Shown: piece after piece, positions 994 through 38,381 of the stretch
How the letters are laid out: every line of letters starts with the position of its first letter
Position numbering within the stretch: position 1 is the first letter of the stretch
Assembly: GCF_004803505.1 (NCBI RefSeq)
Contig: NZ_SSWH01000003.1
Location: 1-64,000, forward strand
Origin: Arthrobacter echini
Lineage (GTDB): Bacteria; Actinomycetota; Actinomycetes; Actinomycetales; Micrococcaceae
Direction of reading: 5' to 3'
DNA length: 64,000 nt
Notes under the pieces: generated by a model
The model's database searches: none
What the model was told of the DNA's origin: nothing
What the model saw: only the letters and a program-made list of their open reading frames with translations
Made by a program: the position numbers and the translations under genes

Positions 994-1911
994 CTAGAGA
1001 GCGGACAGGACGATATCGCGTTCGAGCGCGTCGGGAGCAGAACCGAGCTCACCCGCGAGCGGTGCCAGAACAGCAGCTGCGGACCAGGCTGCCGCGCGCC
1101 GCGCCCATTCCGCCGGTTCGTGCACGTCTGTGGCGATCAGGCTTGCGATCGCGGCGACTGCGGCATCACCGGCCCCGGTCGGATTCCCTGCGAGCGGTTC
1201 CGGGGTGCGGGCCCGCCACACCGTGGCGGAGCGCTCGCGCGGTACGACGACCAGGCCCTCGGAGCCGAGGGACACGACCACCACTCCGGCGCCGAGGTCC
1301 TGCAGCGCGCGGGCACCATCGAGTGGGTCCGAGGTACCGACGGCATCCCGCAACTCGTCCTGGTTCGGTTTGAGCACATCCGCACCCGCTGCCGCCGCCG
1401 CTCGGAGATGGTCCCGCGCGAGATCGGCGATGATCGGGACACCCGAGTCACGACCGGCGCGCACCAGTGCTGTGGCCCTTGCGGTGTCGCTGCCCGGAGG
1501 CAGTGAACCTGAGATCACCAGGCACGCGGCGCCGGGCACCTGGCTCCGCACCAGCTCGTGGAAGAGTTCCCAGTCCTCGTCCCGGCGCTCGTGGCCGCGC
1601 TCCGTGACCATCGTGGTCACGCCGTCGTCGGACTCGACGAGCGCATACGTGCTACGGGTAGCAGTCGCGGACGCGGCGAGTCGATGTGGCACAGTGCCCA
1701 GATCGGCCGCGAACTCCTCGAGATCCTTCGAACCGATCGGGGCCAGCGCCAGGGCCGCGATCCCCTGACTCTCGAGCACGCGGGCCACGTTGATTCCTTT
1801 GCCGCCGGCACGCCTGCGCGCGGGCGGTACCGAATTGGTTGCCCCACGCTGAAGGTGCGGCGCGTCGATCGTCACGTCCCACGCCGGATTCGGCGTCACG
1901 GCGATGATCAT
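994..1911 (-). CDS. PfkB-family hexose-phosphate kinase (1-phosphofructokinase / tagatose-6-phosphate kinase type)
   Basis: Ribokinase-fold sugar kinase of 305 aa. The N-terminus MIIAVTPNPAWD is typical of the 1-phosphofructokinase/LacC group. GGKGINVA (about 36-43) is the substrate-side motif, and NPTGAGDA (about 243-250) carries the catalytic Asp of the anion hole. The ATG at 1911 was chosen because it starts at this family signature and overlaps the ROK stop codon by 4 bp (ATGA), implying coupled translation. Placed between a hexosamine kinase and an aldolase, it would make the bisphosphate substrate. Tagatose-6-P and fructose-6-P or -1-P are all possible substrates. Confidence 0.87.
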   Translation of the reverse strand: MIIAVTPNPAWDVTIDAPHLQRGATNSVPPARRRAGGKGINVARVLESQGIAALALAPIGSKDLEEFAADLGTVPHRLAASATATRSTYALVESDDGVTTMVTERGHERRDEDWELFHELVRSQVPGAACLVISGSLPPGSDTARATALVRAGRDSGVPIIADLARDHLRAAAAAGADVLKPNQDELRDAVGTSDPLDGARALQDLGAGVVVVSLGSEGLVVVPRERSATVWRARTPEPLAGNPTGAGDAAVAAIASLIATDVHEPAEWARRAAAWSAAAVLAPLAGELGSAPDALERDIVLSAL

Positions 1912-2873
1912 GCGCCCGCCTCCGAACCGAGCAGATCGCGGGCGGCGAGAGCGGATCCGTACAGTCCTGCATCCTGACCGAAGTGTGCACGGGTGAGCCG
2001 CGGAACGGGCTGGATCCTGACGAGCTCTTCCAGACGCGCCTGCAGGGGCCGGATCAGGGTGTCCCCTGCTTCGGCCACTCCACCTCCGAGAACGATCACG
2101 TCCGGTGCCACGAGGCTGATCGCGTGGGCGAGTCCGAACGCCAGGGCATCGAGCGCGGATTCCCAGATCTGGCCGGCGGCCGTATCGCCGGAGTCTGCCA
2201 GGGCGAGTACCGCTGAGGCCCCCGGAACGACGGCTCCGGTGAGCCGCTCGTACCGGCGCACGACGGCCGCTGCCGACGCGGTGGCCTCGAGACAGCCTCG
2301 ATTGCCGCACAGGCACTTCTCTCCGCCGGGCACGACGACGGCGTGCCCGATCTCGCCCGCATAGCCGCGAGCAACATGGGTGGTCTCCCCGATGAACAGC
2401 GCCGCCGAGACCCCGGTACCGATGAGGACCACCAGCGCAGTCGCTGCATCCCGGGCCGCACCGAGCCGACGCTCGGCGTATGCGGCCGCACGCACGTCAT
2501 GGCGAAGGGCGACGGGCAGCGCGAACCGCCGCGCCGTCAGCGCGGAGAAGTCGACGCCCTTCCACCCCAGGTTCTCGGACCAGTGTCCGACGCCCGTCTC
2601 GTCGTCGAAGATTCCCGGCAGTGCCAGACCGACGGCCCGGGGGGCGTCTGCCGGAGTCGCCGAGAGTTCCCCGACCAGCTGACCGACGACGTCCAGGACC
2701 CGCTCGGCGGAATCCGGCCCACGGACAGGCGTGGGCACCCGAAGGGGCTCGGACAGCCGCCCGTCGGAGGTGAGCGCGGCCGCCTTGATGGTGGTGCCAC
2801 CCACGTCGATAGCGACGACCGGCGCGCCCGGGCCGAGCGGCGCGGCCGTAGCCACGCCTAGTTCCGGCTCCAT
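1908..2873 (-). CDS. ROK-family sugar kinase (probable N-acetylhexosamine kinase)
   Basis: Cytoplasmic ATP-dependent sugar kinase of 321 aa. DVGGT (23-27) is the ATP phosphate-binding motif. The ROK hallmarks are GEIGH (173-177) and the zinc-binding CLCGNRGCLE (187-196). The catalytic Asp is probably D126, although its neighbours (RHDVRA) depart from the usual NDANA. It lies one base downstream of the SIS-domain gene and overlaps the PfkB kinase, so all are probably on one mRNA. With nagA divergently adjacent, GlcNAc or GalNAc is the most likely substrate; a glucokinase role is not excluded. Confidence 0.85.
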   Translation of the reverse strand: MEPELGVATAAPLGPGAPVVAIDVGGTTIKAAALTSDGRLSEPLRVPTPVRGPDSAERVLDVVGQLVGELSATPADAPRAVGLALPGIFDDETGVGHWSENLGWKGVDFSALTARRFALPVALRHDVRAAAYAERRLGAARDAATALVVLIGTGVSAALFIGETTHVARGYAGEIGHAVVVPGGEKCLCGNRGCLEATASAAAVVRRYERLTGAVVPGASAVLALADSGDTAAGQIWESALDALAFGLAHAISLVAPDVIVLGGGVAEAGDTLIRPLQARLEELVRIQPVPRLTRAHFGQDAGLYGSALAARDLLGSEAGA

Positions 2874-2874
2874 G

Positions 2875-3750
2875 TCACCGGATGACCGAGCGCGTGAGCG
2901 AGCGCGGATTGTCGGGGTCGAGGCCCTGCTTCTCTGCCAGCGCGACCGCGAAACGCTGGGCGACGATCAGGCCGGCCGCCGCGTCGAGATCGTGATGGAC
3001 GAAACGCGCGCCGGTCGTGCCGATATCGGCTGCGAGATCCTCGTCGAGTTCTCCGAGGAGCCAGACGAGGCGGCCCGGCTCGGCAATGGAGATGGGGCCG
3101 TGGCGGTAGTCCAGCGCGGGGTAGGACTCGGACCAGAACTGGGCTGCTTCACGAGCCTTGAGGGCTGCTTCGAAGGCGAGACCGACGGCGAATCCCCTGC
3201 CCAGGAAGGTCACCTGGTCGATGTCGAGCAAATCGGAGATGTCGACGGCCAGCGCGGTCTCCGCCTCGCGCGACAGGGCCTCGACGTCCTCGCCGAGGTG
3301 GGCGCGCAGGAGCGTGAGTGCCGTCGTGGCGAAACGGGTCTGCACCACGGACTGTTCGTCGGCGAACCGGAGGCCGATCACCTCGTCCGCGATCTCTGCA
3401 GCGGGGGAATCCGTGACCGCTGTGATCACGACCGTGGTCATGTCACTGACGGAGTCGATCAGTTCGATCACCTCGCTGGTGGTCCCCGAGCGCGAGATGG
3501 CGATCAGGCGGTCGTAGTCGCGACCGAGGGGGAACTCCGACGCCGCGAAGGCGTCCGTGACTCCATGACCTGCCCGCTCCCGGAGAACGGCATAGGCTTG
3601 CGCCATGAACCAGCTCGTTCCGCAGCCGACGACGGCGACGCGCTCGCCGGAGCGTGGCAGGGAATGGGAGACGTCGGCAACGAGCTCTGCCGCACGGAGC
3701 CAGGTGGCCGGTTGCGACTCCAACTCCGCGTGTACGTACGCTTCACTCAT
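2875..3750 (-). CDS. SIS-domain sugar isomerase/deaminase (AgaS/GlmS-isomerase-like)
   Basis: A 291-aa protein with two tandem SIS domains. VGCGTSWF (about 42-49) and the SRSGTTSEV loop (about 85-95) are phosphosugar-binding segments shared with the isomerase half of GlmS and with AgaS. It lacks a glutamine amidotransferase domain, so a catabolic amino-sugar 6-phosphate deaminase/isomerase fits best. It is the first gene of the minus-strand operon and divergent from nagA. No NagB-type deaminase is seen nearby, which makes this the likely deamination step. Whether the product is tagatose-6-P (AgaS) or fructose-6-P is inference. Confidence 0.8.
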   Translation of the reverse strand: MSEAYVHAELESQPATWLRAAELVADVSHSLPRSGERVAVVGCGTSWFMAQAYAVLRERAGHGVTDAFAASEFPLGRDYDRLIAISRSGTTSEVIELIDSVSDMTTVVITAVTDSPAAEIADEVIGLRFADEQSVVQTRFATTALTLLRAHLGEDVEALSREAETALAVDISDLLDIDQVTFLGRGFAVGLAFEAALKAREAAQFWSESYPALDYRHGPISIAEPGRLVWLLGELDEDLAADIGTTGARFVHHDLDAAAGLIVAQRFAVALAEKQGLDPDNPRSLTRSVIR

Positions 3751-34587: not shown

Positions 34588-35916
34588 TCAGGACTCCGGG
34601 AGCCGCACCCCGAGCAGGGCATCGACGACGTCGGTGAGGCGCTGCTGTGCTCCACCGTCCTCCGCTCCATCTGCTGCACGGGCGGTCGATGACCTCGGCC
34701 GCTCATCGGTGCGCTCACGCGTCGAGGCCGCCCACTCATCGATCACGTGCAGGGCGGCCGGTGCATCGAGATCGTTCGCCAGCTGCTCGCGAACCCGGTC
34801 GCGGACCAGGACGACGTCGGACTCCGTGGCGGACCGTGCCGCCCCACGCCACGCCTCGAGGCGGGCCACGGCCTCCGGCAGCACCTGATCGGTCCAGGAC
34901 CAGTCGGTGCGGTAGTGGTGGGCGAGGATGGCCAGCCGGATCGCAGCCGGTTCGACTCCGGCCCGGCGGAGCTTCGACACGAGCACGAGATTGCCGCGGG
35001 ACTTGCTCATCTTCTCGCCGTCGAACCCGACCATACCCGTGTGTGCGTAGTGGTCCGCGAGCGGGACACCGCCCGCCGCCCAGGCGTGGGAGGCGCTCAT
35101 CTCATGGTGCGGGAAGACGAGGTCGGAGCCTCCGCCCTGGACCGTGAACGGTGCCGGCAGGAACCGCCGCGCGATCACCGCGCACTCGATGTGCCAGCCC
35201 GGGCGGCCCTCACCGAGGCGTCCTCCCGGCCAGGAGGGTTCACCCGGCCGTTCGACCCGCCAGAGCAGTGGGTCGAGTGCGTTGCGCTTGTGCGGGCGCG
35301 CCGGGTCCCCTCCCCGCTCGGCCGAGAGCCCGAGCATCACGTCGGCGTCCAGATGCGAGATCTGACCCAGGAACCAGCGGGCGTCGTCGTCCTCGTGCAG
35401 CGCGGCAACGGCGTCGAGGGAGAAATAGATGTCGCCGCCGGGCTCCCCCGCGCCCCCGGGAACGGCGTAGGCGAGGTCCCGGTCCACCAGCTCCTCCACC
35501 ACCGGGGCGATCCAGCCGATCGACTCGACAGCACCGATGTAGTGGTCTGGGGGCAGCACGTTGAGCGCCTCCATGTCCTCGCGGAAGAGCTGGATCTGCT
35601 CGGCGGCGAGATCGCGCCAGTCGACGCCCGTCGCCGTGGCTCGCTCCAGCAGCGGATCATCGACGTCGGTCACGTTCTGCACGTAGGAGACCGTGGATCC
35701 GGCGTCGCGCCAGACACGGTTCAGCAGATCGAAGGCGACGTAGGTCGCCGCATGGCCCAGGTGCGTCGCGTCGTAGGGGGTGATCCCGCACACGTACAGA
35801 CTCCGCTCGGGCCGGACCGGCAGGGGGACGAGCTCCTCGCGGGCGGTGTCGAACAGTTCGATGCCCGACTGGCTGCCGTCGAGGTCTGGGACAGGAGTCG
35901 AGTTCCACGCAATCAC
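34588..35916 (-). CDS. mshC: Mycothiol cysteine ligase MshC
   Basis: CysRS-like enzyme of 442 aa that joins Cys to GlcN-Ins in mycothiol biosynthesis. The class I signature HLGHA, the KMSKSRGN loop and the zinc-site Cys in [16 protein letters not shown] are present. Lacking the CysRS anticodon-binding extension, and starting with [11 protein letters not shown], it matches MshC and not CysS. The GTG at 35916 has AAGGTGG upstream at good spacing. It lies just downstream of uppP, as usual in actinobacteria. Confidence 0.94.
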
Positions 35917-35939: not shown

Positions 35940-36764
35940 TCAGGCGGTGATGACCCCGGCGCCCAGCAGCACGTAGAGGGCCACGCCGAGCAGGATGCGG
36001 TACCCGACGAAAAGACCGTAGCCGCGCGTGCTGACATATTTCAGGAACCAGCCGATGATGGCGAAGCCCACGACGAAGGCGACCACGGTGGCCAGGGCGG
36101 TCTCGGGCAGTGCGTACGGGCCGGTCTCGTCCCAGCTCTTCACGAGCTGGAAGACACCGCTGCCGAAGACCGCCGGAACGGCCAGGAGGAAGGAGTAGCG
36201 GGCGGCCGCCTCCCTGGTGTAGCCCATGAACAGGCCGGCCGTGATGGTGCCACCGGAGCGGGAGACGCCCGGCACAAGTGCCAGCGCCTGCGCGAGACCG
36301 TACAGGATACCGTGCCGGTAGGTGAGATCGGTCAGTTCCCGCCGCTGGCGGCCCGCGCGGTCGGCCACGGCGAGGATCAGGCCGAAGACGATCAGCATGG
36401 TGGCGACGATCCACATGCTGCGGAAGGTGCTCTCGATCTGGTCCTGGAACAGGAGACCGAGCACCACGATGGGCACACTGCCGATGATCACCAGCCAGCC
36501 CATCCGGGCATCCGGGTCGTCCCTCGGCACTGTCCCTCGCAGTGCCCCGAACCATGCCCTGACGATCCGCACGATGTCCCGCCAGAAGAACACGATGACG
36601 GCGGTCTCGGTGCCCAGCTGCGTGATGGCGGTGAAGGCAGCCCCGGGATCCTGCGCGTCGGGCAGCAGTTCTCCGACGATGCGCAGGTGAGCGCTCGATG
36701 AAATGGGCAGGAATTCGGTGAGGCCCTGGACGAATCCCAGGATGATCGCTTCTAGCCAGTTCAC
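35940..36764 (-). CDS. uppP: Undecaprenyl-diphosphatase UppP
   Basis: A 274-aa integral membrane enzyme that recycles undecaprenyl diphosphate to the monophosphate for peptidoglycan synthesis and can give bacitracin resistance. The motifs [18 protein letters not shown] (Glu-rich motif 1) and [12 protein letters not shown] (motif 2) are present with about seven to eight hydrophobic helices. The GTG at 36764 follows a leaderless promoter and begins MNWLEAI. It is followed by mshC after 23 bp. Confidence 0.95.
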
Positions 36765-36777
36765 ACGTCCGACCCTA
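36765..36777 (-). promoter_or_regulatory. Leaderless promoter of uppP
   Basis: TAGGGT on the minus strand (36777-36772), 7 nt, then the GTG at 36764. Confidence 0.6.
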
Positions 36778-36827
36778 GGCCATCGCGTCGGCGTCGGCGT
36801 GCACGCACCCTCACAGGTCACTACATC

Positions 36828-36840
36828 TAGGCTGGGCCGT
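36828..36840 (+). promoter_or_regulatory. Leaderless promoter of the aldo/keto-reductase-like gene
   Basis: TAGGCT (36828-36833), 7 nt, then ATG at 36841. Divergent from uppP with 76 bp between the two starts. Confidence 0.6.
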
Positions 36841-37776
36841 ATGCAACGGCGAAATGTGGGAGCGAGCGGGCTGTCCGTCTCCGCTCTGGGACTGGGCACC
36901 ATGAACTGGGGCCAGGAGGTACCGGAGGACGTGGCGCGCGAGCAGCTGCGCCTGTTCACTGCTGCCGGAGGCACCTTCGTGGAGACCGCGGGGCGCTACG
37001 GAGAGGGTCGGGCGGAGGCCATGCTCGGCGGCTTCCTCGGCGACGCCGTCGCCCGTGCGGAGGTGGTGCTCGCGGTGCAGGGCGGAACCACCCGCTCCGG
37101 CAGCAGGCGCCTGGACAGCTCCAGGCGGGGTCTGCTCGATTCGCTGGACGGTTCGCTGTCCCTCCTCGGGACCGATCACGTGGATCTGTGGCTGGCGCCG
37201 ACGCCGGATCCTGCCGTCCCGCTGCACGAGATCCTCAGCGCCCTGGAGACTGCGTACAGCAGCGGTCGGGCGCGCTACGTGGGGCTGTCCAACTACCCGG
37301 GCTGGGAATTCGCGCGCGCCGCGGCGACGGCGTCGTTCCCGATCCTGGCGAACGACGTCGAGTACTCCCTCGTGAACCGGCGCGCGGAACGCGACATCCT
37401 CCCGTCGGCCGAGGCCTTCGGAGCAGCGGTGCTGGCCTGGGCTCCGCTGGGACGCGGCGTGCTCACCGGCAAGTACCGCGGCAGGATCCCGACGGGATCG
37501 AGGGGGGCCTCGGACGTCTGGTCCCCCTACGTGGAGCCCTATCTCTCGGGCCGGGCCCAACGCGTCACGGAAGCCCTGTGCACCGCTGCACGCGGTCTCG
37601 ATCTGCCGCCGCACGAACTCGCCCTGCGCTGGCTGCTGCATCGCAGGGGCGTCGCCTCGGCGATCATCGGTGCCCGGACCTCGCAGCAGCTCGAGGAGAT
37701 CCTCCGGATCGGCGGAGCGCCGGTGGCAGAGCCGATCGCCGATGTCCTCGGGGAGGTCTCGGCGCTCGCGGACTGA
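36841..37776 (+). CDS. Aldo/keto-reductase-fold protein with a degenerate catalytic tetrad
   Basis: A 311-aa TIM-barrel AKR relative ([66 protein letters not shown]). NADPH-binding C-terminal segments look intact. Of the Asp-Tyr-Lys-His tetrad only Tyr53 remains at its expected place. The Asp of the usual VDTA motif is Glu48, the Lys of ATKAG is Gln80, and the His of DLWxxH is Pro120. It may be a non-reductase, perhaps a nucleotide-binding or scaffolding protein, or act by another mechanism. Confidence 0.8.
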
Positions 37777-37803: not shown

Positions 37804-38106
37804 TCAGGCACTCGGTCCCTGCTCCACCTCTGCGTCGATCAGCTCGGACACGTATCCCGACTCGTCGCTGTCGTCGTCCACGTCGTCATCATCGTCGCTG
37901 TCGTCATCGTCGTAGACCTCCAGGGGTGTGACCTCGCCGAAGGCGTCGTAGAGGGCCTCCTGGTAGTCCTCGAAGGCTGCAGCGACGCTGCGATACGCTG
38001 CTTCCACCGCGGGGTCGTCGTCCCGGCGCCGCGACGCCGACGAGGCAAGGTGCTCCTCGAGAGCCGAGACGAGGCGCTCGAGCGCGACACGCGGATCTAT
38101 GCTCAT
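37804..38106 (-). CDS. Small conserved acidic protein
   Basis: A 100-aa protein. The first 60 residues form a predicted helical domain (VALERLVSALEEHLASSASRRRDDDPAVEAAYRS style), followed by a run of Asp/Glu (about 66-82) and a short tail. Similar proteins occur widely in actinobacteria next to DUF5703 genes and are sometimes labelled primosomal protein without evidence. Function unknown. Divergent from the DUF5703 gene with 41 bp between starts. Confidence 0.7.
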   Translation of the reverse strand: MSIDPRVALERLVSALEEHLASSASRRRDDDPAVEAAYRSVAAAFEDYQEALYDAFGEVTPLEVYDDDDSDDDDDVDDDSDESGYVSELIDAEVEQGPSA

Positions 38107-38147: not shown

Positions 38148-38381
38148 ATGCGAGAACAATTCCAGAACGCGACCGCCATCCGGAAGCGCGACTACGGACG
38201 ACAGTACGAGTACCTGGTCCTCACTGTTTCGGCGAACGAACCCCTGCCCGCAGCTCGTCGGCTCGTCACCGAGCACACCGAGTACGGCAAGTGGGAGCTG
38301 GAGCGCAGCTGCGTCTACATCGGCGGGAGCCGGCGGTACTGGCTGAGGCGCAAGGTGCTGCGGGTCGAACGTACAGCCTAG
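38148..38381 (+). CDS. DUF5703-family small protein
   Basis: A 77-aa basic protein containing YEYLVLTVSANEPLPAARRLVTEHTEYGKWELERSCVYIGGSRRYWLRRKV, the core of DUF5703. GGAGGG lies 3-4 bp before the ATG. No function is known. Conserved adjacency to the acidic protein on the other strand suggests a functional link. Confidence 0.85.
   Translation: MREQFQNATAIRKRDYGRQYEYLVLTVSANEPLPAARRLVTEHTEYGKWELERSCVYIGGSRRYWLRRKVLRVERTA

Follow-up and report, generated by a model that had tools for sequence, protein, structure and literature searches.

One of the questions raised by this locus is whether an aldo/keto reductase (AKR), in which three of the four catalytic residues are replaced, can still be an enzyme and, if not, in what other way it may act. 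The window analyzed here is a stretch of 64,000 nucleotides from Arthrobacter echini (contig NZ_SSWH01000003.1), and a sequence-only reading of it had proposed that the AKR is a conserved pseudo-enzyme lying beside uppP and mshC. The explanation that we consider probable is that the gene encodes an NADP(H)-binding AKR pseudoenzyme, which would not perform normal carbonyl reduction and would have a non-enzymatic role. Our best reading of its origin is that a syntenic actinobacterial AKR turned into it at the same locus, with no duplication involved. The label 'aldo/keto reductase' is probably misleading for this clade.

The altered tetrad and its locus

The gene (36841–37776, forward strand), defined by its open reading frame, Pfam and orthologues, encodes a protein of 311 amino acids. 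By descent it belongs to the AKR superfamily, as the PF00248 (Aldo_ket_red) match in Pfam covers residues 16–290 with 189 bits, above the curated cut-off of 24 (E 1.3e-55). In NCBIfam several AKR subfamilies were matched, all below the cut-off, and therefore a named equivalog is not applicable. Instead of the usual Asp-Tyr-Lys-His tetrad the protein has Glu-Tyr-Gln-Pro. Codon 48 (GAG, 36982–36984) encodes Glu, where all 133 orthologues outside the clade described below have Asp; codon 53 (TAC, 36997) retains Tyr; codon 80 (CAG, 37078–37080) encodes Gln, where 132 of the 133 have Lys; and codon 120 (CCG, 37198–37200) encodes Pro, where the orthologues have His, or Gln, Asn, Asp, Glu or Arg. In the alignment these changes are seen as ETAGRY for DTAxxY, AVQGG for xTKAG and WLAP for WLVH or WLAH. 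The coordinates, residues and codons of the earlier reading, including the kept Tyr53 and the three replaced residues, were thus confirmed on the sequence.

The gene is divergent from uppP (undecaprenyl-diphosphate phosphatase; 35940–36764, reverse strand), whose start is 76 bases away on the opposite strand, and mshC (mycothiol ligase; 34588–35868, reverse strand, start codon not fixed) lies beyond uppP, which bears out the location that had been claimed. In all genus and family rows examined with their flanks (L001–L019, L091–L159), and in 54 of 61 more distant loci, uppP was found upstream, on the strand opposite to the AKR; some of the other seven loci are cut by contig ends. A horizontal origin is unsupported, as the synteny matches the rest of the family.

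A TANNNT box close before the start codon is the arrangement expected of a leaderless transcript. The AKR has such a -10-like box, TAGGCT, 7 bases before its ATG (36828–36840, forward strand), and TANNNT was found 5–8 bases before the start in 38/38 upstream regions of Pro120 genes and in 32/32 others scanned, these 70 rows counting some genomes twice. This suggests that the AKR start is leaderless-type. In the same interval (36764–36841) uppP also has an apparently leaderless-type start, with TAGGGT 7 bases before its GTG. On the other side of the AKR, a small protein of 100 amino acids with an acidic run is encoded at 37804–38106 (reverse strand), for which no Pfam or NCBIfam match was found, and a DUF5703 protein of 77 amino acids (PF18963 in Pfam) at 38148–38381 (forward strand); the latter is also present in locus L160.

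L160 belongs to G018, the one genus species in which the AKR is absent. There (1552–3059), uppP is followed directly by the genes of the acidic small protein and the DUF5703 protein, and no AKR remnant was seen at the uppP locus; the gene was therefore cleanly lost and uppP is independent of it there. As a clean loss in one of 38 species, this means that the AKR is not essential in G018, and it argues against an essential role of the AKR for UppP. A regulatory or conditional role for UppP may exist.

Distribution of the tetrad residues and probable order of their loss

Our search of the genus covered 38 species, of which 37, including the window, carry the gene; the other 36 carriers are 61–86% identical to the window protein. 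Among the matches listed, the named genomes with the closest loci belong to Arthrobacter (A. agilis, A. echini, A. bussei, A. cheniae and others). The 37 tetrads read EYQP in 24 species, GYQP in four, SFLP and SFSP in three each, and SYQP, CYQP and SYLP in one each. Asp, Lys and His are therefore absent from their positions in all 37: close orthologues with an intact tetrad, which would have spoken against a pseudo-enzyme, were looked for and none was found, and the substitutions are conserved. Tyr is retained in 31 of the 37 and is replaced by Phe in six (SFLP and SFSP), so that the entire tetrad is lost there. As some sister species are changed at all four residues, the case is stronger than the sequence-only reading had it. 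Sequencing or assembly error, or chance, is ruled out by the recurrence of the Lys, His and Asp losses in 37/37 carrier species.

A second genus (g26, two species) has the tetrad DFQP. In the other family genera, 72 orthologues, mostly from the top of the match list and with intermediate-score members of g9 and g30 left out, read DYKH (44), DYKQ (16), DYKN (3), DHKN (2), DYKD (2) and, once each, DFKQ, DDRQ, DCKH, DHKQ and DYKE. The 61 distant actinobacterial orthologues read DYKH (49), DYKQ (11) and DYKR (1); this sample is biased to conserved sequences because the search required exact short peptides and the best 80 were retained. Together these are the 133 comparison orthologues, from which the sister-genus rows L127 and L128 are excluded. 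Asp is present in all of them and Lys in all but one, and His and, less often, Tyr were lost repeatedly. It had been suspected that relatives share the loss of His. This is true and wider than supposed, as His is changed in 27 of the 72 family orthologues, and its loss by itself is therefore weak evidence of inactivity. On these alignments, the clade-specific part is the loss of Lys and Asp. In two rows, L156 and L159 (orthologues of G175 and G296), one in-frame stop each was flagged; these may be pseudogenes or end effects.

In a tree of 123 rows, from which the four tetrad columns were removed, all 39 rows with Pro120 form a single clade (SH-aLRT 98) and the 37 genus rows form their own clade (SH-aLRT 99). 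A tree of 92 rows agrees, with the Pro120 carriers as one clade (SH-aLRT 99); both trees are quick builds with support by SH-aLRT only. On the larger tree, the changes from intact to lost number at least one for Asp, at least two for Lys, at least seven for Tyr (two inside the clade) and at least 15 for His. These counts indicate that His is labile family-wide and Tyr less so, that the loss of Asp is the clade's own, and that the loss of Lys is so too, save for one Arg elsewhere. The motif was thus lost in a lineage that has active-type relatives. Because the sister genus reads DFQP, we infer that Lys and His were lost first, followed by Asp and Tyr.

A general decay of AKR tetrads in these genomes was rejected, as 20/20 paralogues, picked from a longer list as one per genome and each from a different genus genome, read DYKH. 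The window genome encodes eight other AKRs, all of other subfamilies, seven of which read DYKH; the eighth (L089) aligned as DYKR, a weakly aligned protein whose His column is doubtful. In none of the genus genomes does the next-best match to the window protein exceed 41% identity, and the presence of a duplicate with an intact tetrad elsewhere was therefore rejected as well.

Predicted fold, cofactor pocket and selection

The AlphaFold2 model, made from 46 aligned sequences, is a standard AKR barrel (pLDDT 92.9, pTM 0.90), and this predicted (beta/alpha)8 barrel matches the 50 AKR-type entries listed with Z scores of 32–40. In structure it comes closest to human Kv beta2, AKR6D1 and E. coli Tas (Z 39.7–39.6, rmsd 1.9–2.1), and Foldseek matched it with AKRtyl, DepB and 7utf. 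A similar fold does not demonstrate function. No solved orthologue was found in the PDB, where the best sequence match reached 141.6 bits.

Analysis of the 81 near-invariant positions (one residue in at least 95% of the 133 orthologues outside the clade) shows how selective the losses are: 70 survive in 90% or more of the genus's 37 sequences, 61 of them in every one. Only four are lost in the majority, namely D48 and K80, the only ones lost in all 37, and R108 and P296, which are lost in part. The earlier reading had held that the cofactor-binding segments look intact, and the predicted cofactor residues are indeed kept, nearly all unchanged in the 37. Codons 200–212 (37438–37476, forward strand) contain the stacking Trp and a loop that, from AKR structures, we take to bind the phosphate, and codons 277–283 (GARTSQQ; 37669–37689, forward strand) presumably form the clamp for the adenosine and 2'-phosphate. 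The predicted clamp residues W200, G204, R205, G206, K211, Y212, G277, R279, T280 and Q283 are present in 37/37 sequences, and P202 in 28/37. By sequence, the residues that bind NAD(P)(H) at the C-terminal end of the barrel are thus retained, with the amide contacts partly changed. Among the carboxamide contacts, S150 is found in 27/37 and N151 in 35/37. Residue 172 (Asp in the window; codon GAC, 37354–37356, forward strand), which is aligned with the nicotinamide-amide Gln186 of AKRtyl, is Asp in 20 and Glu in 18 of the 38 distinct clade sequences, i.e., the 37 and one further named genome (L004); Glu172 is also shared by 22 of the 61 more distant orthologues and hence does not set the clade apart. 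The protein seems to grip the ADP end of the cofactor as usual, with changes at the nicotinamide end, and since part of the carboxamide contacts has been lost (S150, and Q172 to Asp or Glu), the cofactor may be bound weakly or in an altered way.

Such a pocket would also fit a repurposed enzyme, which transfers hydride to reactive acceptors such as quinones or nitro compounds or performs a different chemistry through newly fixed residues; we regard this as unlikely, even if it is the option that survives best next to the preferred reading. Tyr mutants of AKRs retain quinone reductase activity, which favours it, as do the kept stacking Trp and clamp. Several residues are also fixed in the clade: Trp227 (codon 227, 37519–37521) is found in 38/38 clade sequences and in 2/2 of the sister genus, with mostly Phe, Leu or Met elsewhere, R85 is found in 37/38, and residue 172 is acidic in 38/38. 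However, the newly fixed residues may reflect kinship, because the clade is less diverse than the comparison set (mean identity 74% vs 66%), position 48 is variable (Glu, Gly, Ser, Cys) and thereby gives no hint of a new acid–base role there, and six of the 37 species have changed all four tetrad residues.

The dN/dS values of the altered groups are 0.043 (25 EYQP), 0.046 (13 others) and 0.049 (7 SYLP, SFLP and SFSP sequences). In two groups of orthologues whose tetrad is the usual one they are 0.049 and 0.067; all these group values are rough, as synonymous sites are partly saturated. Because synonymous change is high, close pairs (dS below 0.8) were counted as well, and the counting method gave 0.03–0.16 in the ten altered pairs listed and 0.235 in the single usual-tetrad pair. 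The altered genes have their full length, and no internal stop codons were found in the 37 genus genes. With UppP as the yardstick, the slope is 2.08 for the altered protein and 1.63 for the comparison orthologues; this rate, about 27% higher, is a mild relaxation. A dN/dS of about 0.04–0.05 together with the conserved promoter-like box is what can be expected of a maintained pseudoenzyme, and this purifying selection, with changes common to 37/37 genus orthologues, points to a conserved pseudo-enzyme, as had been proposed.

The mildly raised rate could instead mark a gene in decay, in which activity was lost first and the remainder is to follow. Its loss in G018, the repeated changes of Tyr and His on the tree, and the many family genera that show only paralogue-level matches would fit such a course. 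Yet the low dN/dS, the absence of stops, the -10-like box in all Pro120 upstream regions scanned and the 70 kept near-invariant positions disfavour decay and make it improbable. An ordinary active AKR with an unusual yet working tetrad is very improbable, for although the window protein keeps Tyr53 and family relatives naturally replace His, both the Asp and the Lys that are held almost without exception outside the clade are gone, SFSP and SFLP sisters lack every tetrad residue, and in a fungal AKR a single change of Tyr to Cys abolished activity, according to PMC5734042.

A possible non-enzymatic role

In the pseudoenzyme reading, which we prefer, the window gene is the only orthologue of an AKR that many actinobacteria keep in this position next to uppP. 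In the common ancestor of the window's genus (g1) and the sister genus (g26), Lys would have changed to Gln and His to Pro; later, Asp would have been lost in g1 and Tyr in two sublineages. Throughout, the predicted barrel fold and the residues predicted to bind the dinucleotide were retained. Binding of NADP(H) is likely because the predicted clamp is kept. Normal carbonyl reduction is expected to be absent based on AKR chemistry and on the inactive fungal mutant described in PMC5734042, and as Tyr is kept in 31 of the 37 species some residual chemistry is possible there. Most likely it is the occupied or the empty form of the protein that acts, which would make it a sensor of redox nucleotides, a partner subunit or a scaffold.

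The Kv beta subunits (AKR6), which are the best structural matches to the predicted model (Z about 39.5), have Asn in place of His. According to PMC9317154, Kv beta tunes a partner, holds NADP+ tightly, and retains the catalytic Tyr and a slow reductase activity. Just as Kv beta couples NADP(H) to its partner (PMC9317154), the bound nucleotide or the protein surface would most likely be what is used here.

Other known systems differ from the window protein in the residues that matter. AKRtyl (AKR12D subfamily, Streptomyces; 8jwk–8jwo, 8xr2–8xr4) has the same fold (Z 38, 34% identity). Its stacking W214 corresponds to W200 here, and its amide contacts S160 and N161 to S150 and N151 (alignment; PMC10923870). 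However, AKRtyl works as a reductase, with Tyr53 and His130 in place and with Gln186 touching the nicotinamide amide (PMC10923870), whereas Pro and Asp occupy the sites of His130 and Gln186 here. The syntenic orthologues of Cellulomonas, Nocardioides, Demequina and other family members share the locus and its divergent order and are 46–58% identical, but unlike the window protein they retain Asp and Lys. A natural AKR that lost a catalytic residue is S. cerevisiae Aad3 (Tyr73Cys), yet according to PMC5734042 it belongs to a degenerating paralogue family, whereas the window gene is single-copy and under strong purifying selection genus-wide. No AKR pseudoenzyme of a comparable kind was found in the open-licence literature, which is weak evidence of absence. 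PMC10893638 mentions mshC and an aldo-keto reductase, in passages that are not about the window gene.

A functional link to UppP or to mycothiol is speculative. One form of it, to which we attach little weight, is that an NADP(H)-occupied pseudo-AKR senses the redox state of the cell and, by way of the uppP/mshC neighbourhood, tunes the recycling of undecaprenyl phosphate or the supply of mycothiol. On that view catalysis was already optional in the family, with Tyr lost at least seven times, and the real role of this AKR in actinobacteria may always have gone beyond carbonyl reduction. As the AKR steadily adjoins uppP, what it does matters for a locus of actinobacteria that has been little studied.

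Gene duplication commonly lies behind pseudoenzymes, with one copy of the pair inactive. The gene described here is single-copy and syntenic and seems to have lost its chemistry stepwise at its own locus, and the intermediates are found in living species: DYKH, DFQP, EYQP/GYQP/CYQP/SYQP, SYLP and SFLP/SFSP. They form a testable series by which it can be asked when catalysis ends and what the protein does instead. In other family genera, the catalytic Tyr is changed in L142, L152, L157, L167, L169 and L181 to His, Phe, Asp, His, Cys and His, respectively; these proteins span 310–335 amino acids and may therefore be further, independent pseudoenzymes.
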